The notes beneath the pieces are model-generated. The model searched no databases and had not been told where the DNA came from. It was given only the letters and a program-made list of their open reading frames with translations. Below are positions 3,171-46,249 of a DNA stretch of 64,000 bases, piece by piece. Position 1 is the first letter of the stretch, and every line of letters begins with the position of its first letter. The stretch spans positions 124,001 through 188,000 of the forward strand of contig NZ_JACSCY010000007.1 in NCBI RefSeq assembly GCF_014333615.1, written 5' to 3'. Made by a program: the position numbers and the translations under genes. The stretch comes from Hymenobacter citatus (GTDB taxonomy: Bacteria; Bacteroidota; Bacteroidia; Cytophagales; Hymenobacteraceae).

Positions 3171-3349
3171 TCTAGGCCAACAACATCAGCAACGACGAGA
3201 CACAAAATGTTGTGTCTCTACTGAAAAGGCAGCCAGAACGGTGTAGAGACGCATACTTGCGTCTCGTCGTTGCTGATGTTGTTGGCCTAGAGCGGTGCTG
3301 ACGCGAGTTGCTCAACGACGAGACGCAAATATGCGTCTCTACACCGTTC
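3171..3349. repeat. nested inverted repeats, AGAGACGCA/TGCGTCTC family
   Basis: This fills most of the gene-free 3036-3376 gap. The 30-nt arm at 3171-3200 (TCTAGGCCAACAACATCAGC...) is perfectly repeated inverted at 3262-3291. A second inverted pair uses 3237-3272 and 3313-3349 (AACGGTGTAGAGACGCAT / ATGCGTCTCTACACCGTT), so one central arm can pair with either side. The same unit recurs at 14044-14174 before alaS. No coding potential is apparent. Confidence 0.9.
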
Positions 3350-14325: not shown

Positions 14326-17019
14326 ATGTCACTCCCCAAGGCCTCACACGTTCGCCAACAGTTCCTCGACTTCTTCGCCTCCAAAGGTCACCACATTGTG
14401 CCCTCGGCCCCGCTGGTGCTCAAAGACGATCCTACCCTGCTGTTCGTCAACTCGGGCATGGCGCCGTTCAAAGACTACTTCCTCGGCAACAAGCCCGCCC
14501 CCTATAAGCGCGTGGCCGACACCCAGAAGTGCCTGCGCGTGAGCGGTAAACACAACGATTTGGAGGAGGTAGGCTACGACACCTACCACCACACCCTGTT
14601 CGAGATGCTAGGTAACTGGTCGTTTGGCGACTACTTCAAAACCGAAGCCATTGCCTGGGCCTGGGAGCTGCTGACTGACGTATACAAGCTGCCCAAAGAC
14701 CGCCTCTACGTGACCTATTTCCAGGGCGATGAGGGCGATAAGCTGGCCGCCGACACCGAGACGCAAAACCTGTGGCGCCAGTACACCACCGAGGACCGCA
14801 TCCTGCCCGGCAACAAGAAGGACAACTTCTGGGAGATGGGCGACACCGGCCCCTGCGGCCCCTGCACCGAAATTCACATCGACCTGCGCTCCGAAGAAGA
14901 GGTAGCCCAGAAGCCCGGCCGCGAGCTGGTGAATGCCGACCACCCGCAGGTGGTTGAAATCTGGAACAACGTGTTCATGGAGTTTCAGCGCCTGGCCGAT
15001 AAGTCGCTCATCAAGCTGCCCGCGCAGCACGTGGATACCGGCATGGGCTTCGAGCGCCTGATGATGGCCGTGTCGGGCGTGAAGTCGAACTACGATACCG
15101 ACGTGTTCCAGCCGCTGATTCAGTTCATCGCCAAGGAAGCCGGCGTAGAATACCACGGCACCGCCCCGGCCACCGTGAACGACCAGCCCACCACGGAAAA
15201 CGAGAAAACCGACATCGCCATTCGCGTTATTGCTGACCATATTCGCGCCATCAGCTTCACCATTGCCGACGGCCAGCTGCCCAGCAACGTGAAGGCCGGC
15301 TACGTGATTCGCCGCATTCTGCGCCGCGCCGTGCGCTACGCGTTTTCGTCGCTCAATCAGAAGCAGCCCTTCCTGTATAAGCTGGTGCCCGTGCTGGCCG
15401 ATCAGATGGCCGGTATTTTCCCCGAGCTGAAAGCCCAGCAGCAGTTTGTGCAGCGCGTGATTGAGGAGGAGGAAATCAGCTTCCTGAAAACGCTGGAAAA
15501 CGGCCTGCGCCGCATTGATGCGCTGGAAGAAGGCTTCAAAAACCAAGGCAACACCATCGACGGCAAAACGGCTTTCGAGCTGTCCGACACCTTCGGCTTC
15601 CCGCTCGACCTCACCGCCCTCATTGCCCGCGAGAAAGGCCTAACGGTAGACGAGGCCGGATTCCAGAAAGAGCTGGAAGCCCAGAAAAACCGCTCGCGCA
15701 ACGCCCAGGAAACGGAGCAGAGCGACTGGGTAGTGGTGAACTCCGACAACGGCGAGCTGCCCGTGTTTGTGGGCTACGACGTGGAGGAAGCCCCCGCCCG
15801 CTTGCTGCGCTACCGCAAAGTGACGCAGAAGAGCAAAACCGAGTACCACGTGGTGCTCGACCAAACGCCGTTCTACGCCGAGTCGGGCGGACAGGTAGGC
15901 GACACGGGCTACCTGGAAGGCGGCCTGTCGCGGGTGCGCGTGATTGACACCCGCAAGGAAAACGACCTCATCGTGCACACCGTGCTGGAGCTACCCCTCG
16001 CCGACGATCTGGAGGGCGAGTTCACGGCTCGCATCGACCAGAGCCGCCGCGCCCTGATTCGCAAGAACCACACAGCCACGCACTTGCTGCAAGCCGCCCT
16101 GCGCCGCGTGCTGGGCGAGCACGTGCAGCAGAAAGGCTCCCTGGTGAACGACAAGCTCCTGCGCTTCGACTTCTCCCACTTCACCAAGGTAACCGACGAG
16201 CAGCTGCGCGAAATCGAGCAGATCGTGAACGAGCGTATCCGTCAGCAAATCCCGTTGGATGAGCGCCGTAACGTGCCGATTGACGAGGCCAAAACGCTGG
16301 GTGCTATGGCGTTGTTTGGAGAGAAGTACGGCGACTTCGTGCGCGTGATTACCTTCGATAAGGAGTATTCCGTGGAGCTGTGCGGCGGCATTCACGTGCG
16401 TGCCACCGGTGAAATCGGCTTCTTCAAAATCACCAGCGAGTCGGCGGTAGGCGCCGGTGTGCGCCGCATTGAGGCCGTAACGGCCGACGCGGCCGAGGCC
16501 TACGTGGACCAGCAGCTGGATTTGCTGCGCCAGGTGCGCGAGCTGCTGGGCAACCCCCAGCACCTGCTGCCCAGCCTGCAAAAGGTAGGCGAAGAGAACG
16601 TCGCCCTGCGCAAGCAACTGGAGCAGGCCGAAAACCAGCAGCTCAGCCAACTAAAAGACCAACTCGTTTCACAAGCCAAAACGGTAGGTGGCGTGCAGCT
16701 CATTGCCGCCCAGGTGCCCGCCCGCTCCGCCGACGCTCTCAAGAAGCTGGCCTACGACTTGCGCCAGGTAGTGCCTAACCTCGTAGCCGTCCTCGGCGCC
16801 GACATCGATGGCAAGCCCCAATTGGCCGTGATTCTGGACGACGAAATCGCTAAAGCCGACAAGCTCAACGCCAAAACCCTGATTGGCGCGCTAGCCAAGG
16901 AAATCCAGGGCGGCGGCGGTGGCCAACCGTTCTTCGCTACGGCCGGTGGTAAGAACGTGGCTGGTCTGCCGGCGGCTATCGGCAAGGCTGAGGAGTTGGT
17001 AAGCCAAGCGCTGGCGTAA
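14326..17019 (+). CDS. alaS: alanyl-tRNA synthetase
   Basis: 897 residues from ATG 14326 (MSLPKASHVRQQFLDFFASK). The longer frame from 14071 is rejected because its extra 85 codons run through the inverted repeat. Class II catalytic core with HHIVPSAPLVLKDDPTLLF, NSGMAPFKDYFLG, CLRVSGKHNDLEEVG and HHTLFEMLGNWSFGDYFK; editing domain with zinc ligands HTATHLLQAAL and CGGIHVRATGEIG that clears Ser- and Gly-tRNA(Ala); C-terminal coiled coil and oligomerisation region ending in GGGGGQPFFATAGGKN. Its stop is followed at once by a 32-bp perfect hairpin. Confidence 0.98.
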   Translation: MSLPKASHVRQQFLDFFASKGHHIVPSAPLVLKDDPTLLFVNSGMAPFKDYFLGNKPAPYKRVADTQKCLRVSGKHNDLEEVGYDTYHHTLFEMLGNWSFGDYFKTEAIAWAWELLTDVYKLPKDRLYVTYFQGDEGDKLAADTETQNLWRQYTTEDRILPGNKKDNFWEMGDTGPCGPCTEIHIDLRSEEEVAQKPGRELVNADHPQVVEIWNNVFMEFQRLADKSLIKLPAQHVDTGMGFERLMMAVSGVKSNYDTDVFQPLIQFIAKEAGVEYHGTAPATVNDQPTTENEKTDIAIRVIADHIRAISFTIADGQLPSNVKAGYVIRRILRRAVRYAFSSLNQKQPFLYKLVPVLADQMAGIFPELKAQQQFVQRVIEEEEISFLKTLENGLRRIDALEEGFKNQGNTIDGKTAFELSDTFGFPLDLTALIAREKGLTVDEAGFQKELEAQKNRSRNAQETEQSDWVVVNSDNGELPVFVGYDVEEAPARLLRYRKVTQKSKTEYHVVLDQTPFYAESGGQVGDTGYLEGGLSRVRVIDTRKENDLIVHTVLELPLADDLEGEFTARIDQSRRALIRKNHTATHLLQAALRRVLGEHVQQKGSLVNDKLLRFDFSHFTKVTDEQLREIEQIVNERIRQQIPLDERRNVPIDEAKTLGAMALFGEKYGDFVRVITFDKEYSVELCGGIHVRATGEIGFFKITSESAVGAGVRRIEAVTADAAEAYVDQQLDLLRQVRELLGNPQHLLPSLQKVGEENVALRKQLEQAENQQLSQLKDQLVSQAKTVGGVQLIAAQVPARSADALKKLAYDLRQVVPNLVAVLGADIDGKPQLAVILDDEIAKADKLNAKTLIGALAKEIQGGGGGQPFFATAGGKNVAGLPAAIGKAEELVSQALA

Positions 17020-17020
17020 T

Positions 17021-17095
17021 AGTTGTGAATTGCAAACGCGGGTCTGAGCACTTATCTAATTGGAGTGCTCAGACCCGCGTTTGCAATTCACAACT
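17021..17095. terminator. 32-bp perfect hairpin after alaS
   Basis: Arms 17021-17052 (AGTTGTGAATTGCAAACGCG...) and 17064-17095 are perfect inverted copies with an 11-nt loop. It starts 2 nt after the alaS TAA and ends 18 bp before the next ATG. There is no T-tract, so it may be a dispersed repeat that also acts in RNA 3'-end formation. Confidence 0.7.
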
Positions 17096-17112
17096 ATCCC
17101 AATCATTCTTTA

Positions 17113-17907
17113 ATGAAGAAGTTTTACGTATTCTGTTTTCTACTAGCTGCGGGAAGTATTGGTGGTTATAATGCCACTGCTCAAATCAATAATGAGCCAC
17201 ATACAGTCAAGGAATATTTTGATGCCGCCGGTGAAAAGCTGTCGTCAGCTGAAGGCGCAGTTGAATGGAGCGAGTCAATTTATCAGGATAGTATTCGAGG
17301 CGTTGTACAAGGCTATTACGCCAATGGCCAATTAAAATGGCGTAGTGAATATGAAAATATCCGTCTGCATACCGTGCATGGTACGAGCGAGATGTGGTAC
17401 GAAAGCGGCCAACTGCGCCGCCGAGCGCGCGTGAGCCATGGTAAGAGGGATGGAGAATTAGTATCCTATCACCCAAACGGCACACTAAAGCGCCGTGAAT
17501 TATATAAAGAAGGGGAAAGCCTAGGCGGAGAATGTTTTGATGCCGCTGGAAAACCTGTTGCATTCTACGCATTTGAAAGGATGCCTTCACCACCTCTAGG
17601 GGGCTTTAATGGAATGCTTCAGTTTATTGGTAAGAATATGCGCTACCCTGCGGAGGCATTAAAAAAGAACGTTCAGGGCAAAGTCTTCATCAACTTTTAT
17701 GTCGACACGCTAGGGGTAGTCCGTAATGTACATATTAAACAAGGTGTACATCCGTCCATCGATAATGAGGCGGTACGAGTTATTGCTAGCTTGCCAGCAT
17801 GGGAGCCAGGTTATCAGGATGGCAACCCGGTTACGGTGAGCTTCACGGTGCCTGTTACATTTGCTATTCAAAACAAGAAGATAAAAAAGCGTATTTCTGC
17901 TGAATAA
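17113..17907 (+). CDS. MORN-repeat / TonB C-terminal fusion protein
   Basis: 264 residues from ATG 17113 with a signal peptide (MKKFYVFCFLLAAGSIGG...ATAQ). Residues about 70-150 hold MORN-type repeats of the YwqK kind (GYYANGQLKWRSEY, EMWYESGQLRRRARV, ELVSYHPNGTLKRRELYKEG). The C-terminal part (about 177-255: IGKNMRYPAEALKKNVQGKV, INFYVDTLGVVRNVHIKQGV, LPAWEPGYQDGNPV) is a TonB-C-like domain. The combination is recurrent in Bacteroidota secreted proteins. AT-rich relative to the flanking alaS and gatB. Role unknown; a periplasmic binding or envelope-contact function is inferred. Confidence 0.8.
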   Translation: MKKFYVFCFLLAAGSIGGYNATAQINNEPHTVKEYFDAAGEKLSSAEGAVEWSESIYQDSIRGVVQGYYANGQLKWRSEYENIRLHTVHGTSEMWYESGQLRRRARVSHGKRDGELVSYHPNGTLKRRELYKEGESLGGECFDAAGKPVAFYAFERMPSPPLGGFNGMLQFIGKNMRYPAEALKKNVQGKVFINFYVDTLGVVRNVHIKQGVHPSIDNEAVRVIASLPAWEPGYQDGNPVTVSFTVPVTFAIQNKKIKKRISAE

Positions 17908-17974
17908 ACGGAGAAAGCCGTGTTAGTACGCGGGCGAAGTTAATGACTGGCATAGTCGGCCTATTACGGCTTCT

Positions 17975-19453
17975 ATGTTTAACTTGCACCTTGATATGGA
18001 CGAAAGCATCAAAGCCAAATACCAGCCGGTCATCGGCCTCGAAGTACACGCGCAGCTGCTCACGCACAGCAAGATGTACTCCTCGGATGAAAACGAGTAC
18101 GGCGCCATGCCGAACAACAACCTGAGCGCGATTACGCTGGGCCACCCCGGCACGCTGCCCAAGGTGAACTACACGGCCGTGGAGTACGCCATGAAAATGG
18201 GCCTGGCCACCAACTGCCAGATCACGCGCGACAACTTATTTGCCCGCAAAAACTACTTCTACCCCGACCTACCCAAGGGTTACCAGATTACGCAGGATAA
18301 AACCCCCATCTGCACCGGCGGCCACGTGGATATTCGGGTAGCGGGTGCCGAGCCCAAGCGTATCGGCATCACGCGCATTCACATGGAGGAAGACGCGGGC
18401 AAGTCGATGCACTTGGCCGGCGAGGTGGAAACGCTGGTAGATTTGAACCGCGCCGGCGTGCCGCTCATTGAGATTGTGAGCGAGCCGGACCTGCGCACCG
18501 CCGACGAAGCCTACGCCTACCTGGCCGAAATCAAGAAGCTGGTGGAGTACCTGGAAGTGTGCGACGGCAACATGGAGGAAGGCTCCCTGCGCTGCGACGC
18601 CAACGTGTCGGTGATGCTGAAGGGCGCCGATAAGTTCGGAATGAAGGTGGAAGTGAAGAACATGAACTCCTTCCGCAACGTGCAGCGCGCCATCGACTAC
18701 GAGATTGAGCGGCAGATTGCGCTGCTGGAAGCCGGCGAGGAAATCATCAGCGAAACCCGCGGTTTCGACGCGGCCAGCGGCACCACCAACGGCCAGCGCT
18801 CCAAGGAGACGATGAACGACTACCGTTACTTCCCCGAGCCTGACCTACCCCCGGTGGTAATTGACGACGAGTGGCTGCACCGCATTCAGGCCGGGTTGCC
18901 GGCGCTGCCCCAGCAGCTCTACGCCCGCTTCACCGGCGAGCTGGGCCTGTCGGACTACGACGCCACGGTGCTGACCGCAGAGAAGGACGTGGCTTTGTTC
19001 TTCGACGAACTGACCCGCCTGACGCCCAATGCTAAAGCTGCTGCCAACTGGGTAACGGGTCCGGTGAAGGCCTACCTCAACGAGCGTGCTTTGCCCATGG
19101 CTGAGTTTCCGCTCACGGCGCAGCACTTGGCCGGCATCATTGAGCTGATTGACGAAAACAAAATCGGCCATTCAGTGGCGTCCAAGCAGCTGTTTCCCTA
19201 CCTGCTGGAGCATCCCACGGCCAACGTAACCGGCGCGGCCGAGCAGCTGGGCCTGTTGCAACAGTCGGATGCCGGGGCGCTGGAAGCCCAGGTGCAGCAG
19301 GTGCTGGCTGCCAACCCGGCCAAGGTAGCCGAATACAAAGCCGGTAAAAAGTCGCTGACGGGTATGTTTATGGGTGAGCTGATGAAGCTCACCGGCGGTA
19401 AAGCCGACCCGAAAATGGCCAACCAGCTCCTGCGCAAGGCGCTGGACGCGTAG
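17975..19453 (+). CDS. gatB: Asp-tRNA(Asn)/Glu-tRNA(Gln) amidotransferase subunit B
   Basis: 492 residues (485 from the alternative ATG at 17996). GatB is the kinase/tRNA-binding subunit of GatCAB, which amidates Glu-tRNA(Gln) or Asp-tRNA(Asn). Family marks include PVIGLEVHAQLLTHSKMY, LGHPGTLPKVN, RKNYFYPDLPKGYQITQ, IHMEEDAGKSMH, LIEIVSEPDLRT, GSLRCDANVSV and KNMNSFRNVQRAIDYEIERQ, then the helical GatB/YqeY tail (IGHSVASKQLFPYLLE...KSLTGMFMGELMKLTGGKADP). gatA and gatC are not adjacent. Its TAG stop is the first triplet of a GC-rich palindromic repeat. Confidence 0.97.
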   Translation: MFNLHLDMDESIKAKYQPVIGLEVHAQLLTHSKMYSSDENEYGAMPNNNLSAITLGHPGTLPKVNYTAVEYAMKMGLATNCQITRDNLFARKNYFYPDLPKGYQITQDKTPICTGGHVDIRVAGAEPKRIGITRIHMEEDAGKSMHLAGEVETLVDLNRAGVPLIEIVSEPDLRTADEAYAYLAEIKKLVEYLEVCDGNMEEGSLRCDANVSVMLKGADKFGMKVEVKNMNSFRNVQRAIDYEIERQIALLEAGEEIISETRGFDAASGTTNGQRSKETMNDYRYFPEPDLPPVVIDDEWLHRIQAGLPALPQQLYARFTGELGLSDYDATVLTAEKDVALFFDELTRLTPNAKAAANWVTGPVKAYLNERALPMAEFPLTAQHLAGIIELIDENKIGHSVASKQLFPYLLEHPTANVTGAAEQLGLLQQSDAGALEAQVQQVLAANPAKVAEYKAGKKSLTGMFMGELMKLTGGKADPKMANQLLRKALDA

Positions 19454-19480
19454 GGGCGCGTTGCACGCGCCCGTCGTTGC
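19451..19480 (+). repeat. stop-codon-linked GC palindrome, copy 1
   Basis: TAGGGGCGCGTTGCACGCGC followed by CCGTCGTTGC. The hairpin GGGCGCGT-TGC-ACGCGCCC starts right at the gatB TAG, so the repeat supplies the stop codon. Copies 2 and 3 are at 21955 and 22199. Confidence 0.85.
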
Positions 19481-19512
19481 CGGACGCGTAAGGTAATCGT
19501 TGAAAAAGCGTC

Positions 19513-19613
19513 TGTCATCCTGAGCTTGCGAAGGACCTTATGCCCGCAGAACGAGTCGTTAAGTACGCTTATCGTTCTAACGTGAGAAGGTCCTTCGCAA
19601 GCTCAGGATGACA
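19513..19613. repeat. inverted repeat, TGTCATCCTGAGC/AAGGACCTT family
   Basis: 27-nt perfect arms: 19513-19539 (TGTCATCCTGAGCTTGCGAA...) and 19587-19613, with a 47-nt loop containing CAGAACGAGTCGTT, also seen in related copies. It lies just before the first thioredoxin lipoprotein gene. Confidence 0.9.
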
Positions 19614-19638
19614 CACGCTTTTTTTTGATCTTTAGCTA

Positions 19639-20649
19639 ATGCGTACTCTGCAGTTATTGCCCTTCCTATTACTAAGTTGCCAACCGGCGAGTCAAGCGCC
19701 GCACACAGCATCGGCCACAGGCTACAAAATACAGGGTAGTATTCGACCCGCGGCCCCGCAGAGCCAGGTGGTGCTGGAGCAGCAGGTAGGCCGTACGATA
19801 CGGCTGGATTCTGCAGCCATCGACGCCAACGGTTATTTCACGCTGCGGGGGCAAGTGCCCGCGCCGGGCCTTTATCGGTTGGTACTGCGGGCACCCGGAG
19901 CCGATGCGCGCATTTTCCCCGTGCCCCTCGATAATCACGCTCATCTGACCTTGACCGCCGATGCCGCCAGTGCGCACTGGCAAGGTTCGCCGGAAGTAGA
20001 CTTGCTACATACCCTGGCCCAGGCCGAACTCGCTGAAAAACCGCGCATTGTGCGGCGCTACGCCACGTCCTACCTCGCCCCCAATGCAGTGTGGGACCTG
20101 AGCGCTGCCGGTGCGCCCGACGATTTTGTGGACTCCATGACCACGCGTTTCCAGGTGGCCGGCGACTCCAGCCGGGCCGCCCTGGGGCTCTACCAGTGGC
20201 AGCGCGCCTACCGCCTCACGGCGCCCGGCACACAGGTGCCAGACATAGCCCTACCCACCGTCGATGGCAACACGGTGAGGCTGAGTAGCCTGCGCGGCCA
20301 ATACGTGCTGCTGGATTTCTGGGCCTCGTGGTGCGGCCCTTGTCGCCAGGAGCACCACAGTCCGGAGCTACGCAAAATCCATCGGCTGTTTCGCGGGCGC
20401 GGGTTGGCGTACTATGGGGTGTCGCTGGACGAAAACGCCGCGAAGTGGCGCCGGGCGCTGGCAGCCGACAGCTTGCCTGGCGTACAGGTTCGGGCTGCTG
20501 AGGGCGAGCAGAGTGCGGCGGCGCAAGCGTTTGGCGTGACGACGCTACCCTTCAATCTGCTGCTCGACCAGGAGGGTAGGGTACTGGCCCGCAATCTGCA
20601 TGGGCATACCTTGGGCTCGCGCATTGCCAGCTATATTCCGCTGGATTGA
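19639..20649 (+). CDS. TlpA-like thioredoxin lipoprotein with DUF4369-type N-terminus (1)
   Basis: 336 residues. A lipobox (LLPFLLLSCQ) suggests a lipoprotein. Residues about 29-130 are a DUF4369-like beta domain (YKIQGSIRPAAPQSQVVLEQ, ...IRLDSAAIDANGYFTLRGQV), then a TlpA/AhpC-type thioredoxin domain with the active site FWASWCGPCRQE (about residues 228-239) and the cis-Pro loop TTLPFNLLLD. It should act as a periplasm-facing thiol-disulfide reductase. It differs from its downstream paralogue in the linker length (336 versus 382 residues). Confidence 0.88.
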   Translation: MRTLQLLPFLLLSCQPASQAPHTASATGYKIQGSIRPAAPQSQVVLEQQVGRTIRLDSAAIDANGYFTLRGQVPAPGLYRLVLRAPGADARIFPVPLDNHAHLTLTADAASAHWQGSPEVDLLHTLAQAELAEKPRIVRRYATSYLAPNAVWDLSAAGAPDDFVDSMTTRFQVAGDSSRAALGLYQWQRAYRLTAPGTQVPDIALPTVDGNTVRLSSLRGQYVLLDFWASWCGPCRQEHHSPELRKIHRLFRGRGLAYYGVSLDENAAKWRRALAADSLPGVQVRAAEGEQSAAAQAFGVTTLPFNLLLDQEGRVLARNLHGHTLGSRIASYIPLD

Positions 20650-20823
20650 TCCAATTCGGGAACCTGCGCGGCTGATTTGGGTTGTAGCAACGAAGGACGC
20701 GCCTAAAGCCGTGGATTCTGTCCAAAATCCGCAACTTGCGGCCGCAAACGCTGTCTTTTCCGTCAATTTTATTTAAACGCCTTGGCGTTTTGACCCCGCT
20801 TTCCTCGAATGAACCATCCTCCC

Positions 20824-21957
20824 ATGAAAAGTCTGTTGCTGTTTGGTGCCCTGCTTGGTATGGCAAACGCCTGTAATAAAGCTACTTCGCCTACCTCTAG
20901 CGCTGGAAATAGCACTGGTTATCAAATCAACGGCGAGCTAACCAACGCCCAGGCCGGTGCCAAGGTGTATCTGGCTGAATTGGAAGATAATCAACTCGTT
21001 TCGCGTGATACAGCTACTATTGACGAAAAAGGTCGCTTCACCTTTACGGGTACTACCCCGGCGCCTAGCATTTATCAGGTGAAGGTAGACGACACCAACC
21101 AGGCCCTGGTAGCCCTCGACAACCAAACCAAGCTCACGCTGCGCGGCGACGCTACCAAGCTTAACAACAGCTACACCGTGCAGGGCTCGCCTGACTCGGA
21201 GCTGTTGCAACAGGTGAGCAATGCGTTGCAGATGAACAAGACCAGCATGGACCGCTTGGAGCAGCGTTACGTGCAGGCCCGGCAGGCCGGCTTGGCCGAC
21301 TCGGTGGCCGCCATTCAGCAGGAGGCGCAGCAGATACAGGAGCGTGGGCAGGGGGGCGTGCGCCGCTTGGTGCGCCAGCACCCAGGCTCGGTGGTATCGG
21401 GCTTCGTGCTGACGGCTGTGTTGAATCCGGACGATAACTTCGGCCTGGCCGATACCGTGGCTACGGCCCTGAAAGCCGCCCACCCTGAGTCGCGCTACGC
21501 TAAGGCGCTGACCGCCAAGGTGGACGCATCCCGCGCCACTGCCACCGGCGCCGTAGCGCCCGACATCAAGCTGCCTACCCCCGAGGGCAACGTGGTACCC
21601 CTGAGCAGCCTGCGTGGCAAGTACGTGCTGCTGGATTTCTGGGCCTCGTGGTGCGGCCCCTGCCGCCAGGAAAACCCCAACGTGGTGCGCGCCTACCAAA
21701 AATACAAGGACAAAGGGTTTACCGTCTACAGCGTGTCGCTGGACCAAAGCCGCGATAAGTGGGTGAATGCCATTGCCAAAGACAACCTGACCTGGACGCA
21801 CGTATCGGACCTGCAATACTGGCAGAGCGCGGCGGCCCAGACCTATAAGATTGAAGCCATTCCGCAGTCGTATCTGCTTGATCCGCAGGGCCGTATCATC
21901 GGCAAAAACCTACGCGGCCCAGCCCTGGAAGCCAAGCTGGCCCAGGTGCTGAAGTAG
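20824..21957 (+). CDS. TlpA-like thioredoxin lipoprotein with DUF4369-type N-terminus (2)
   Basis: 377 residues from ATG 20824 (MKSLLLFGALLGMANACNKA, lipobox ANAC); an in-frame ATG at 20809 would add MNHPP. The DUF4369-like domain (YQINGELTNAQAGAKVYLAE, ...DEKGRFTFTGT) is followed by a Gln-rich helical linker (about 140-185) and the thioredoxin domain (FWASWCGPCRQENPN; cis-Pro AIPQSYLLDPQGRII). Tandem paralogue of the previous gene; the active-site segment is almost identical at DNA level. The TAG stop is the first triplet of a GC-rich palindromic repeat. Confidence 0.88.
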   Translation: MKSLLLFGALLGMANACNKATSPTSSAGNSTGYQINGELTNAQAGAKVYLAELEDNQLVSRDTATIDEKGRFTFTGTTPAPSIYQVKVDDTNQALVALDNQTKLTLRGDATKLNNSYTVQGSPDSELLQQVSNALQMNKTSMDRLEQRYVQARQAGLADSVAAIQQEAQQIQERGQGGVRRLVRQHPGSVVSGFVLTAVLNPDDNFGLADTVATALKAAHPESRYAKALTAKVDASRATATGAVAPDIKLPTPEGNVVPLSSLRGKYVLLDFWASWCGPCRQENPNVVRAYQKYKDKGFTVYSVSLDQSRDKWVNAIAKDNLTWTHVSDLQYWQSAAAQTYKIEAIPQSYLLDPQGRIIGKNLRGPALEAKLAQVLK

Positions 21958-21986
21958 GGGCGCGTTGCACGCGCCCTTCGTTGCTG
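21955..21986 (+). repeat. stop-codon-linked GC palindrome, copy 2
   Basis: Same element as 19451: TAGGGGCGCGTTGCACGCGC then CCTTCGTTGCTGA. The first TAG is the stop codon of the second thioredoxin lipoprotein. Confidence 0.85.
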
Positions 21987-21995
21987 ACGTTGCAT

Positions 21996-22033
21996 AAAAA
22001 ACGCCCGCTGAATTCGTTCAGCGGGCGTTTTTT
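21996..22033. terminator. bidirectional terminator
   Basis: 17-bp perfect stem AAAAAACGCCCGCTGAA (21996-22012) / 22017-22033 with a TTCG loop, T-rich on both strands. It sits between the convergent thioredoxin and Pro-rich protein genes. Confidence 0.92.
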
Positions 22034-22072
22034 ATTTTGAAGCTGTTTATAAAGTCAAAAATTCTGAAATGG

Positions 22073-22170
22073 ACCGTCATGCTGAGCGGAGTTGAAGCAT
22101 CACGCGTGCTGATGGTAGATAGTAACTTTCGTCAGCACGCGAGATGCTTCGACAAGCTCAACATGACGGT
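22073..22170. repeat. inverted repeat, CGTCATGCTGAGC/GAAGCATC family
   Basis: Outer arms ACCGTCATGCTGAGC and its inverse at 22156-22170 (with one mismatch), inner arms GAAGCATCACGCGTGCTGA / CGTCAGCACGCGAGATGCTTC. Related to 1810, 30932 and 46134. Confidence 0.85.
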
Positions 22171-22198
22171 CTTAATACGTTCTATACCGCAACTATCC

Positions 22199-22228
22199 GC
22201 AACGACGGGCGCGTGCAACGCGCCCCTA
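22199..22228 (-). repeat. stop-codon-linked GC palindrome, copy 3 (inverted)
   Basis: Reverse-strand TAGGGGCGCGTTGCACGCGC then CCGTCGTTGC. Its TAG is the stop codon of the Pro-rich protein gene on the minus strand. With copy 2 it brackets the terminator and the 22073 repeat. Confidence 0.85.
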
Positions 22229-22993
22229 CAGGAACATGCGTTTCATGGCGTTCCAGAGCAGCTTTTTGCGACCCTGGTCTTCCTCAATCACGTCTAGCTC
22301 GGCGGCGGGTAGGTAGGCAGCGTCGCCGGCCAGGATAACGGGCTCGTAGAGCTGGGTTTTGTGTACGGCCACGTCGAGCAGGTTTTTGCCGAAGCCGATA
22401 ATCTGCTTAGCCTCCAGCTTGGTACGCAGCGTGCTCAGCGCCACCGGCAAGTGCGACTCCACGTTGATGAGCACCGTGTCTTCCACAATCTGCCCGATGG
22501 CTTTCAGCACGTTGTTCAGGAACACGTGTCGGGGCAGGCGCTGAAACTTCACCGCATCCAGGCGTACCAGAATCACAATGCCGCGGGCATTGCTGCCCAG
22601 GGTAGAAAACGGTGTTTCGGTGAGGGGTGGGGCGGTGCGCTGGGGTGGGGCGGGAGGAGCCGGGGGGGTAATTCTGGTAACAGGAGGCGGTGGGATTGGT
22701 GCACTACTGGGCACTGTAGCCGGCGGGCGACTGACTGGTGGTGTGACAGGCGGAACCGAAGCAGCTGGGCGACTCGCGGGCGGCGTTGGCGGCACCGCAA
22801 CCGCCGGCGTGGCGGGATGTGGTGCTGGTGCGGCAGCTAGCGGGGTAGGCAGCGTGGGCGCAGCCGGCGCTGGGGTAGGCGCTGGCGGCTGAGCGGTAGG
22901 CGCGGCCACAGCTTCCCCTACCTCGGGCACCACGTAGAGTGTGAGGTCGGCGTAAAATTGCTGATAGAAAGCCAGAGCCGCGTCGTGGTTCAT
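22226..22993 (-). CDS. Pro-rich linker protein, unknown function
   Basis: 255 residues in three parts: a short N-terminal helix region (MNHDAALAFYQQFYADLTLY), a Pro/Ala/Thr-rich linker of about 100 residues (25-130), and a compact C-terminal domain (about 130-255: FSTLGSNARGIVILVRLDAV, RHVFLNNVLKAIGQIVEDTV, IIGFGKNLLDVAVHKTQLYE). The layout suggests two small folded parts joined by a flexible tether. No signal peptide, so cytoplasmic. I do not recognise the family. It is 3 bp downstream of the thioesterase gene on the same strand, so probably co-transcribed. The TAG stop belongs to a palindromic repeat. Confidence 0.7.
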   Translation of the reverse strand: MNHDAALAFYQQFYADLTLYVVPEVGEAVAAPTAQPPAPTPAPAAPTLPTPLAAAPAPHPATPAVAVPPTPPASRPAASVPPVTPPVSRPPATVPSSAPIPPPPVTRITPPAPPAPPQRTAPPLTETPFSTLGSNARGIVILVRLDAVKFQRLPRHVFLNNVLKAIGQIVEDTVLINVESHLPVALSTLRTKLEAKQIIGFGKNLLDVAVHKTQLYEPVILAGDAAYLPAAELDVIEEDQGRKKLLWNAMKRMFL

Positions 22994-22996
22994 GGT

Positions 22997-23512
22997 TTAG
23001 AGGTCGAATAGGGCCTTTAGCTCGGTGGCGTCGGCAGGTTGCATGCGGCCAGCCAGCACCAGGCGTAGCTGCCGCCGCTGGAGGGCACCATCAAAAAGAC
23101 GTACTTCTTCGGGCGTTTCGGGGAGGGCATCGGGCACGTCGATGGGGCGGCCCGACTGATCCACGGCCACGAAGGTGAAGAAGGCCTCGTTGGATTTCAC
23201 CTTGGTGCCGCTGGGAATGTCCTCGGCCCACACATCAATATGCACTTCCATTGAGGAGCTGAACGCGCGCGTCACTTGCGCCTCCAGCGTCACCACGCTG
23301 CCCAGCCGGATGCCTTCCCGAAACGACACGTTATCGACAGAAGCCGTCACCACAATGCGGTTGCTGTGGCGCTGTGCCGACACGGCGGCGGCAATGTCCA
23401 TCAGGTGCATCATGCGGCCACCCATCAGGTTGTTGAGCGTGTTGGTATCATTGGGCAGCACCAGCTCGGTCATGCTCACAAAGGATTCTTTAACGGGTTT
23501 TTGCTTGCGCAT
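22997..23512 (-). CDS. hotdog-fold acyl-CoA thioesterase (1)
   Basis: 171 residues. A YciA/BACH-type hotdog domain: SMTELVLPNDTNTLNNLMGG, RMMHLMDIAAAVSAQRHS (the hotdog helix), TASVDNVSFREGIRLGSVVT, FFTFVAVDQSGRPIDVPD. It should hydrolyse acyl-CoA to free CoA and fatty acid in the cytoplasm. A C-terminal extension of about 35 residues (RLFDGALQRRQLRLVLAGRM...) goes beyond the core. A shorter relative is at 54132. Confidence 0.9.
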   Translation of the reverse strand: MRKQKPVKESFVSMTELVLPNDTNTLNNLMGGRMMHLMDIAAAVSAQRHSNRIVVTASVDNVSFREGIRLGSVVTLEAQVTRAFSSSMEVHIDVWAEDIPSGTKVKSNEAFFTFVAVDQSGRPIDVPDALPETPEEVRLFDGALQRRQLRLVLAGRMQPADATELKALFDL

Positions 23513-23543
23513 GGGGGTAGGCGAGAGTAGGCGAAAAGAGCCG

Positions 23544-23551
23544 CAAAGATA
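23544..23551 (-). promoter_or_regulatory. candidate -7 promoter element for the thioesterase operon
   Basis: TATCTTTG on the minus strand fits TAnnTTTG, 31 nt before the ATG at 23512. Confidence 0.45.
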
Positions 23552-23690
23552 GGTAGTCGCGCCGGGTATGTTCGGGCCTTATCTGAATTGTTTACTTAAG
23601 CAACGCGTGCCTTGCAACCTTTAATTAGCTTACCTGCCTCTTCCAGATAAGCAGAGTTGGGAGTCGTATACTTTTCATTGAGCAGGTTTT

Positions 23691-24929
23691 ATGAACGCAT
23701 TGTTTACAAAAAGCAGATTGATGGTACTATGCAGCGCCGCGCTGCTGGCTGCGTGCCAAACCGATAGCGACGTGTCGCCCGACAATACACCCAACGTACG
23801 GCCCCTCACGGCGCAGGAGTCGCAAACCGTTGGGAGTGCCAACGATTTTGCTTTTCGCAGCTTTGCCGCGTTGCGGAAGGCCGAGGCTGCCAACAACCTA
23901 TTTATCTCGCCCCTGAGTATCTCTGCGGCCCTCACCATGACCTACAACGGCGCCGATGGGACGACCAAAGAGGCCATGCGCAAAACGTTGGGCTACGCGC
24001 CGACTGCCACCAACGAAGAAATCAGCCAGTCGTACAAAAGCCTGTTTGCGCTGCTGCAAGGGGTAGACAAGAAGGTGAACTTCGCTGCCGCCAACTCGCT
24101 CTGGTATGCGCAGCAGTACAAGCTGCAAGCGCCCTTCGTACAGCTCAACCAAACGTATTTCGACGCCAAGGTGCAGGGCGTAAACTTTGCCGAGAGCAGC
24201 ACCAAGAACACGATTAACAAGTGGGTAGAAAGCAAAACCAATGGTAGGATTAAAGACCTGATCAAGCAGACTACGAGCGATGATGCCCTATACCTGGTGA
24301 ATGCGCTTTACTTCAAAGGCACTTGGACCTACACCTTCGATAAGAAGCAAACGCAAAAAGCGCCTTTCTACCTAGAAGACGGCAGCACTACCTCCCGTGA
24401 TTTTATGGCGCTGACCAAAGGGCGCTACCTGTACGCTGCCGACGCCGATATGCAACTCATCGACCTGCCCTACGGCAACCGCCAGTACAGCCTGACCCTG
24501 CTGCAACCCAGTGGCACACGCACGCTGGCTGCCCTCACCGCCACGCTCAGCAGCGCCAAGCTCGCCGCGTGCCTGTCCCGCGCCGATACCATGAGTATGC
24601 CGCTGCGCCTACCCAAGTTCAAGCTGGAGTACGAAGCTGACCTTAAACAAGTGCTGATACAGCTTGGTATGGGCGAAGCGTTTGGCAGAGGAGCCAACTT
24701 TAGCAAGATGCTAGAAGGGCGCAGCGATTTAGCTATTGATAAAGTGCTGCACAAAACCTTTGTAGAGGTAGATGAAGAAGGCACCGAAGCTGCTGCCGCC
24801 ACGGCAGTAGGCATGGTTACTACAAGCATTGGCCCCCCGCCCGAAATCTGGCTGAACCGCCCCTTCCTGTTTCTGATTCGGGAAAAATCCTCCAACGCCA
24901 TTCTTTTTATTGGACAGTTGGTGAAATAG
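23691..24929 (+). CDS. serpin-family protease inhibitor, lipoprotein
   Basis: 412 residues with a lipobox (LLAACQTD, Cys about residue 22). The serpin fold is recognisable by NDFAFRSFAALRKAEAANNL, FISPLSISAALTMTYNGADG, NSLWYAQQYKL, INKWVESKTNGRIKDLI, LVNALYFKGTWTYTF and the C-terminal NRPFLFLIREKSSNAILFIG. The reactive-centre hinge EEGTEAAAATA is small-residue rich, as in inhibitory serpins. Counting 17 residues from the hinge Glu puts P1-P1' at Thr-Ser in GMVTTSIG (inference by analogy with alpha-1-antitrypsin). Membrane-anchored serpins may guard against proteases. The last codons and TAG lie inside a TGAAATGGTGAG repeat. Confidence 0.93.
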   Translation: MNALFTKSRLMVLCSAALLAACQTDSDVSPDNTPNVRPLTAQESQTVGSANDFAFRSFAALRKAEAANNLFISPLSISAALTMTYNGADGTTKEAMRKTLGYAPTATNEEISQSYKSLFALLQGVDKKVNFAAANSLWYAQQYKLQAPFVQLNQTYFDAKVQGVNFAESSTKNTINKWVESKTNGRIKDLIKQTTSDDALYLVNALYFKGTWTYTFDKKQTQKAPFYLEDGSTTSRDFMALTKGRYLYAADADMQLIDLPYGNRQYSLTLLQPSGTRTLAALTATLSSAKLAACLSRADTMSMPLRLPKFKLEYEADLKQVLIQLGMGEAFGRGANFSKMLEGRSDLAIDKVLHKTFVEVDEEGTEAAAATAVGMVTTSIGPPPEIWLNRPFLFLIREKSSNAILFIGQLVK

Positions 24930-24930
24930 T

Positions 24931-25076
24931 GAAATGGTGAGTTTTGCTGTTCTGTCATCCTGAGCGCAGCGAAGGATCTTCTCACGTCAGAACAAGTTGT
25001 AATAACGAGTATCGTTCACACGTGACAAGGTCCTTCGCTGCGCTCAGGATGACAGAACAGCAAAACTCACCATTTC
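24931..25076. repeat. long inverted repeat between serpin and pcm, TGTCATCCTGAGC family with TGGTGAAA flanks
   Basis: 50-nt arms (24931-24980 and 25027-25076) that match with one mismatch; outer part GAAATGGTGAGTTTTGCTGT, inner part TGTCATCCTGAGCGCAGCGA. The tandem TGGTGA-type units continue outward to the stop codons of both flanking convergent genes (24927 and 25099). Confidence 0.93.
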
Positions 25077-25096
25077 ACCACTCACCATTTCACCAT

Positions 25097-30931: not shown

Positions 30932-31036
30932 TGTCCTGCTTGATCTGGCGTCCGCTTGTCGAAGCATCTCGCGTGCTGATGTGAGATACTAATTAGAAGT
31001 CAGCACGCGAGATGCTTCGACAAGCTCAGCATGACT
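30932..31036. repeat. inverted repeat, GTCGAAGCATCTCGCGTGCTGA family
   Basis: Core arms CTTGTCGAAGCATCTCGCGT (from 30955) and the inverse ACGCGAGATGCTTCGACAAG (to 31024), with weaker TCATGC...GCATGA ends. Between the GH92 start and the transporter stop (31046). Confidence 0.88.
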
Positions 31037-42667: not shown

Positions 42668-42883
42668 GTGGTGAAATTGTGAGTGGTGAGTGGTGAGTTT
42701 GTGAGTAGAAAATACGCCTGTCATCCTGAGCAGAGCGAAGGACCTTCTGCCAGTTGAACGAGTCGTTGTTACGCCTGTCGTTCTACCTTGAGAAGGTCCT
42801 TCGCTGCGCTCAGGATGACAGGCGTATTTTCTACTTATAAACTCACCACTCACCACTCACCACTCACAATTTCACCACTCTTA
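42665..42883. repeat. inverted repeat with TGGTGAG tandem arrays between E1 and tamL
   Basis: The outer arms are tandem units GTGGTGAAATTGTGAGTGGT... running from the E1 TAA (42665) and, inverted, back to the tamL TAA (42883). The inner arms are AAATACGCCTGTCATCCTGA...AAGGACCTTCT and its inverse (42709-42838), of the TGTCATCCTGAGC family. The whole convergent gap is repeat. Confidence 0.92.
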
Positions 42884-46133: not shown

Positions 46134-46249
46134 CGTCATGCTGAGCGCAGCGGAGCGGAGTCGAAGCATCTCGCGTGCTGACGTCTGATACTAATTCAAC
46201 GTCAGCACGCGAGATGCTTCGACTCCGCTCCGCTGCGCTCAGCATGACG
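46134..46249. repeat. 49-bp perfect inverted repeat, CGTCATGCTGAGC family
   Basis: Arms 46134-46182 (CGTCATGCTGAGCGCAGCGG...) and 46201-46249 are perfect inverse copies, 18-nt loop TCTGATACTAATTCA-like. It is the longest perfect hairpin of the family and lies between the TrmH stop (46101) and the OMP stop (46280). Confidence 0.95.

Follow-up and report, generated by a model that had tools for sequence, protein, structure and literature searches.

A GTAG-headed palindromic repeat that coincides with stop codons in Hymenobacter citatus

The stretch of Hymenobacter citatus DNA analyzed here (64,000 nucleotides, positions 124,001 to 188,000 of contig NZ_JACSCY010000007.1; hereafter the window, whose positions serve as coordinates, with G000 denoting the genome that contains it and L-numbers individual loci) harbors three copies of a short, GC-rich repetitive extragenic palindromic (REP) sequence, each of which overlaps the stop codon of a gene. 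Exact copies of the sequence TAGGGGCGCGTTGCACGCGC are located at 19451-19470 and 21955-21974 on the plus strand and at 22209-22228 on the minus strand, where the tail extends back as far as 22199; dinucleotide shuffles of the window contain, on average, 0.02 copies. The initial annotation had pointed to these three copies and claimed that the TAG of each is an in-frame stop codon, which is borne out by the sequence and the list of open reading frames (ORFs). All three copies are preceded by a G, giving a common head GTAG, and in all three the stem is followed by a tail close to GTCGTTG. The copies and the genes that they end are as follows.

17975..19453, plus strand: gatB, stop codon at 19451-19453 (Pfam GatB_N, 1.3e-119)
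19444..19452, plus strand: left copy of a 9-nt direct repeat, GGACGCGTA, that flanks REP copy 1
19450..19480, plus strand: REP copy 1, GC class; head GTAG, in which TAG is the gatB stop, stem GGGCGCGT/ACGCGCCC, loop TGC, tail GTCGTTGC
19482..19490, plus strand: right copy of the 9-nt direct repeat, GGACGCGTA, followed by AGG; the old GCG-TAA is still readable here
20809..21957, plus strand: TlpA/thioredoxin-like lipoprotein 2, stop codon at 21955-21957 (Pfam support for thioredoxin/AhpC-TSA)
21954..21984, plus strand: REP copy 2, GC class; TAG is the stop of TlpA-like lipoprotein 2
22002..22033, plus strand: terminator-like hairpin with a T-tract, separate from the REPs and located between copies 2 and 3 (the terminator scan reports the inner part, 22015-22027)
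22199..22229, minus strand: REP copy 3, GC class, inverted; TAG is the stop of the Pro-rich ORF
22226..22993, minus strand: Pro-rich ORF of 255 aa, stop codon at 22228-22226

Copies 2 and 3 bracket the entire spacer between two convergent genes and span 274 bp head to head. The Pro-rich ORF had no match in a Pfam search at E <= 0.001; its C-terminus, LWNAMKRMFL, is kept in the two closest relatives, the genomes G002 and G055.

The repeat and its family

The GC-class element has the architecture GTAG-GGGCGCGT-TGC-ACGCGCCC-GTCGTTG, and a genome-wide search detected 78 copies within 3 mismatches (37 forward and 41 reverse), compared with none for the reversed control pattern. Placement was scored for 86 GC-class copies in stretches around the matches, including those of a sister variant, GC2, for which no genome-wide search with its own pattern was made. 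In 85 of the 86 copies, the base that precedes TAG is G, and farther upstream no base exceeds 49%; the outer boundary of the element therefore seems to lie at GTAG. Four of the 86 copies overlap a called gene; the calls, here and below, were made with a simple script, trained on the codon usage of the window, rather than taken from curated annotation, and their starts are approximate. The copies are organized in 58 elements, namely, 29 singletons and 29 pairs, with one copy counted in two pairs.

A multicopy palindrome of the 20-40 bp class that carries GTAG at one end, is mostly intergenic and occurs as singletons and pairs is a GTAG-tagged REP. The super-family described under this name by Di Nocera, De Gregorio and Rocco (2013, PMC3733652) resembles the GC class in consisting of short palindromes that leave GTAG unpaired at one end, in its many copies, in its intergenic location as singletons and pairs and in its proximity to the 3' ends of upstream ORFs. 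However, in the part of that paper considered here, the GTAG repeats are listed for Proteobacteria, Cyanobacteria, Chloroflexi and PVC; its text names Bacteroidetes once, for CGTC repeats. The REPIN/RAYT systems (Bertels and Rainey 2011, PMC3116915; Nunvar et al. 2010, PMC2817692, and 2013, PMC3686654) are similar in forming tail-to-tail pairs of about 90 bp (12 of the 29 pairs found here measure 86-96 bp) but differ in that half of the elements described here are singletons, the interiors of the pairs appear unrelated by eye and no RAYT flanked by a GC REP was found. In the literature collection searched, no paper was found that combines Hymenobacter with intergenic palindromic repeats.

The three window copies fold into an 8-bp core stem with a TGC loop, with energies near those of shuffles (z from -0.5 to -1.6). 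An intrinsic terminator was rejected as the identity of the repeat: the hairpin is followed by GTCGTTG and not by a T-tract, and a scan for intrinsic terminators reported 5 sites vs 3.9 in shuffles, none of them at the REPs. The earlier suggestion that the hairpin caps mRNAs is not directly supported: the T-tract is missing, and a separate terminator-like hairpin lies further on from the TlpA gene. A known structured RNA was rejected, there being no Rfam match at gathering scores within 17500-24000.

Placement relative to stop codons

A same-strand upstream gene is present for 46 of the 86 GC-class copies, and in 38 of these 46 the TAG is exactly the stop codon of that gene; the other 8 lie 3-24 nt beyond the stop, and none is farther away. 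For 37 copies, the nearest upstream gene is on the opposite strand and thus has its start turned toward the REP head; the remaining 3 lack a called upstream gene. As a background, GTAG sites downstream of genes were counted on the coding strand, leaving out those within GC-class REPs, in the window and 40 stretches of G002, where 129 of 911 (14%) fall on stops; 17 of the first 20 G002 stretches were placed on a listed REP. Compared with this availability, the 38 exact placements among 46 give a binomial p of about 4e-25, and within 30 nt of stops the exact fraction is 83% vs 52% expected from GTAG availability (p about 2e-5), in both cases with the copies treated as independent. Thus, GC copies coincide with stop codons far beyond chance and, at gene ends, do so nearly exclusively, and the proposal of the initial annotation that the placement is non-random, the element being selected or targeted at stop codons, stands on a genome-wide count.

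Both singletons and pairs take part. Among the 29 pairs, 5 have both ends on stops, the window pair being one of these, 14 have one end and 10 have none, whereas 14 of the 29 singletons are on a stop vs 4 others that have a same-strand upstream gene; for 12 of the 14 stop-fused singletons, the next called gene is at least 100 nt beyond the element. Among the 37 heads that face a start, 22 lie no more than 30 nt from the called start or slightly within the gene, vs 184 of 1237 GTAG sites. The exact-stop rate is 13/16 in G002, 18/19 in G055 and 11/14 at other loci of the genus, with a few heads that read TAA and some sites shared by descent; among the 7 exceptions in these 49 copies, five lie 55, 72, 129, 307 and 1316 nt past the stop.

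This placement is not a rule for all REPs of the genus, as two other families demonstrate. The AC family, GTAGAGACGCATACTTGCGTCTCGTCGTTG, shares the head and the tail with the GC element and has 124 copies in the genome (1 in the control), of which 112 were scored; 2 of 64 are on a stop and the other 62 lie 7-835 nt beyond it, although the contrast is limited in that AC copies, unlike GC copies, are conserved to about -8 and carry conserved outer arms, so that their TAG is not the outer end of the element. In the third family, TAACGCGAAG, with a GTAA head, the placement is exact in 4 of 20 cases at the examined loci (G098 1/11, G000 2/7, G063 1/2). As a yardstick, 100 kb of Escherichia coli DNA in two stretches provided a small sample of 10 REP heads, all from the same stretch; of the 8 with an upstream frame, none is on a stop, the nearest being 17 nt away.

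Within the window, AC copies are found at 3243 and 14044 on the plus strand, with minus-strand partners whose heads are near 3341 and 14173. Their outer arms are similar to AAGAAGCTGTTTGAGTTAGC, and several arms begin at or near a stop codon.

The kind of arrangement described here is already known: GTAG REP termini have been reported to often provide the TAG stop to flanking ORFs, with REPs lying near 3' ends (PMC3733652). The genome-distribution section of that paper does not give a stop-fusion rate per family, whereas here fusion to a stop was counted for 38 of 46 copies of the GC class and is the exception in two further families. The term stop codon occurs in neither PMC3116915 nor PMC3686654 and twice in PMC2817692, both times with regard to rayt genes, where REPs are described as very close to or immediately downstream of the rayt stop codons. 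What is added here is a near-exclusive, family-specific rate, contrasting families and empty sites at which the position of the stop often came first.

Orthologous sites in related genomes

The nearest relatives, G002 and G055, are 95-99% identical to G000 in two proteins. At gatB, the window reads ctggacgcg-TAG-GGGCGCG...GTTGCC-GGACGCGTAAGG, with a copy of GGACGCGTA following the element; the repeat-free counterparts are ctggacgcg-TAA-GCTGCGA in G002 and ttggacgcg-TAA-GCTGCGA in G055. All six distinct Hymenobacter relatives examined, none of which has the repeat here, end gatB at that codon, with TAA in the two nearest and TAG in four (two loci of identical sequence were counted once). The gatB loci of named species point to Hymenobacter as the genus of the G-numbered genomes, and the G063 gatB stretch is identical, over the part compared, to that of H. 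roseosalivarius. Because relatives that lack the repeat stop there, the gatB stop predates the repeat, and its third base is now G in place of A. The TlpA gene of H. rigui similarly ends with AAG-TAG, the same stop, without a repeat; the TlpA/Pro-rich REP pair is common to G002 and G055, with altered stems or loops. The statement of the initial annotation that the palindrome supplies the stop is therefore correct insofar as its TAG serves as the stop in all three genes and, at some other sites, sets the C-terminus 1-4 codons away from the stop of the relative, but it does not hold for the origin of the gatB stop position, which is older, and the TlpA stop, too, exists without the repeat.

Among the 38 stop-fused copies, 28 have a G002 orthologue in the examined stretches, and 12 of these sites are occupied within 5 mismatches. 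The 16 others were classified by eye. Five have the stop at the same position without a repeat (GTAA at gatB, GTAG at L018 and L063, TGA at L051 and L006); four (both ends of L059, L008 minus and L066) appear to carry a decayed copy, again with no shift of the stop; six are off by 1-4 codons, the G000 protein being longer at L016 and L011 and shorter at L041, L055, L026 and L045; and one (L008 plus) is unscorable, so that the stop coincides at 9 of the 15 scorable sites and differs at 6. A G055 orthologue is present in the examined stretches for 12 of the 38 copies: 10 sites are occupied, one is decayed (the Pro-rich site) and one is empty (gatB). In the reverse direction, among copies with a G000 orthologue in the examined loci, 17 of 21 in G002 and 17 of 23 in G055 are at sites also occupied in G000; these shares are not genome-wide estimates, 17 of the first 20 G002 stretches having been placed on a listed REP and the G055 stretches on copies of its own. 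The G055 copy at L368 has an empty GTAA counterpart in G002, with the stop at the same codon, whereas at the site of the G055 copy at L380, G000 reads GCG-TAT and the frame runs on for four codons. In this small sample, stops seem to have stayed where they were or close by, and the junction seen most often in the clean cases is GTA.

Three further observations were made at such sites. At L353, the G002 orthologue of the L059 site, one small decayed palindrome between convergent genes gives both TAG stops (GTAGGG...CCCTAC). At L051, the sequence between two REPs, GGGCGGTATTTCCACC, resembles, by eye, the G002 gene end with its downstream sequence, GGCGGTATGATTTCACC, as though part of the gene end had been copied, similarly to gatB. 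Finally, the spacer that follows an rfbB-like gene (L282-L311; 28 of 30 loci read) contains a different inverted repeat in nearly every Hymenobacter genome (a GC REP, GTAACGCGAAG, TAATGTG-type, AATTAAAAATTG-type and others), and in several of these the repeat, by eye, opens with the TAA of the stop; with a spacer that differs in nearly every species, this site is uninformative as a guide to the ancestral stop.

Targeting, selection and other explanations

We favor, with some confidence, targeted insertion: a mobile GTAG-headed REP that lands head-first on a G-T-A at the end of a gene would settle on gene ends rather than make them. The family would spread non-autonomously in this Hymenobacter lineage, as singletons and as tail-to-tail pairs, perhaps moved by a transposase acting in trans, and pairs may arise both as units and through two separate insertions. 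In a new copy, the GTAG head would face outward from the intergenic region and sit on the edge of a gene, most commonly on a G-T-A at the 3' terminus of the gene upstream. If this GTA leads into an existing stop (xxG TAA or xxG TAG), the length of the gene would be kept, the stop would read TAG and the hairpin would follow directly; if the GTA is not part of the old stop, the TAG of the repeat would become the stop a few codons from the old one. Under this scenario, the placement would arise at insertion and not only through later selection. Insertion of IS200/IS605 elements occurs at a short fixed target beside the left foot of a hairpin, which would explain the constant GTA junction. In a stronger version, the insertion machinery would recognize a GTA-purine specifically at frame ends, directly or via a DNA or RNA state found only there; this is conceivable but rather doubtful. 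Were it correct, the element would multiply through a dense genome without breaking genes.

Several observations weigh against targeted insertion. There are three Y1_Tnp genes in the G000 genome, and in their loci, one of them truncated by the end of a contig, no GC or AC copy within 3 mismatches was found; G002, despite its 20 copies within 2 mismatches, has no Y1_Tnp match at E <= 0.001. An IS200/IS605-like insertion would not be expected to leave the 9-nt direct repeat seen at gatB, and the avoidance of intergenic GTAG sites is left without explanation by the targeting model. Furthermore, among the 16 unoccupied G002 orthologues, clean GTAG or GTAA sites are confined to gatB, L018 and L063; the L051 and L006 counterparts have TGA, six stops are 1-4 codons away, four sites look decayed and one is unscorable. 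Polarity is clear at gatB alone, and elsewhere loss in G002 is possible, the L063 copy being also present in G055.

With regard to the mover, no link to a RAYT was found, neither at the three Y1_Tnp loci of G000 nor, at E <= 0.001, in G002; over-represented REPs without a cognate RAYT have been reported (PMC3686654), and Bertels and Rainey (PMC3116915) describe the dissemination of REPINs as a central, unresolved issue. A miniature inverted-repeat transposable element moved by a DDE transposase, or target-site duplication in general, was rejected as well, there being no clear excess of flanking repeats over shuffled controls: direct repeats of at least 9 nt within 300 nt flank 3 of 86 GC copies vs about 0.8 expected, and those of at least 8 nt within 68 nt flank 1 of 192 vs about 0.3 expected. 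The latter case is gatB, whose GGACGCGTA repeat is at the top of the close-range list and second in the 300-nt list, a single case that makes no general rule. Separately, at L031 (1250-2200), a Y1 transposase-like gene is located amid several copies of a different repeat that contains GCGTAGCGGTCATAGG or close variants.

The main rival of targeted insertion is selection, whereby the repeat would insert broadly and flush copies would be kept on account of a benefit from the hairpin, through protection of the mRNA 3' side or tuning of translation. E. coli REPs less than 16 nt from a stop are indeed described as lowering translation (PMC12306157), the window pair is common to three species and, in 30 orthologous copy pairs, 28 of the 47 changed stem pairs stay paired. 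However, the other 19 lose pairing in one of the two species, so that the hairpin is not strictly kept; orthologous spacers of other species carry unrelated repeats or none; and G000 also tolerates AC copies at positions far beyond stops. On balance, we regard selection as a possible but unlikely cause of the placement.

Still less probable is a scenario in which the repeat creates the stop by landing among the final codons and shortening the protein, with survival limited to insertions in frame. The proteins at L041, L055, L026 and L045, which are 1-2 residues shorter in G000 than in G002, and that at L380, which is 4 codons shorter in G055 than in G000, would fit; by contrast, the same stop codon is found in a repeat-free relative at gatB, L018, L063, L051, L006 and the G055 site L368, and at L016 and L011 it is the G000 protein that is longer.

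Insertion after any GTAG followed by purging of genic copies, such that stops are the commonest tolerated GTAG, appears quite improbable and is strongly disfavored: the nearly invariant G before TAG is compatible with it, and so are the GTAG ends of 83 of 353 background genes (in the window and 20 G002 stretches) and the 52% exact placement that availability alone gives near stops, but that figure is exceeded significantly, whole intergenic availability falls far short of the observed rate and G000 has no scored copy more than 24 nt past a same-strand stop, although 5 of the 49 copies in sister and other genomes are such cases.

The repeat illustrates how such an element can spread throughout a compact genome with hardly any change to the reading frames. 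A family with nearly every gene-end copy in register with stops, two contrasting families and the unambiguous empty site at gatB make the choice between targeting and selection directly testable.

Inverted repeats of other types are also present in the window. A perfect 34-nt inverted repeat with an 11-nt loop (17019-17052 / 17064-17097) surrounds the called start of an ORF at 17065. Long inverted repeats of the GTCATCCTGAGC / CGTCATGCTGAGC type are located at 19503-19623, 24929-25078, 42679-42860, 46134-46249 and 30954-31025, one of them directly 3' of the gatB REP; judging by the name used in PMC3733652, these probably belong to the CGTC-tagged REP super-family.

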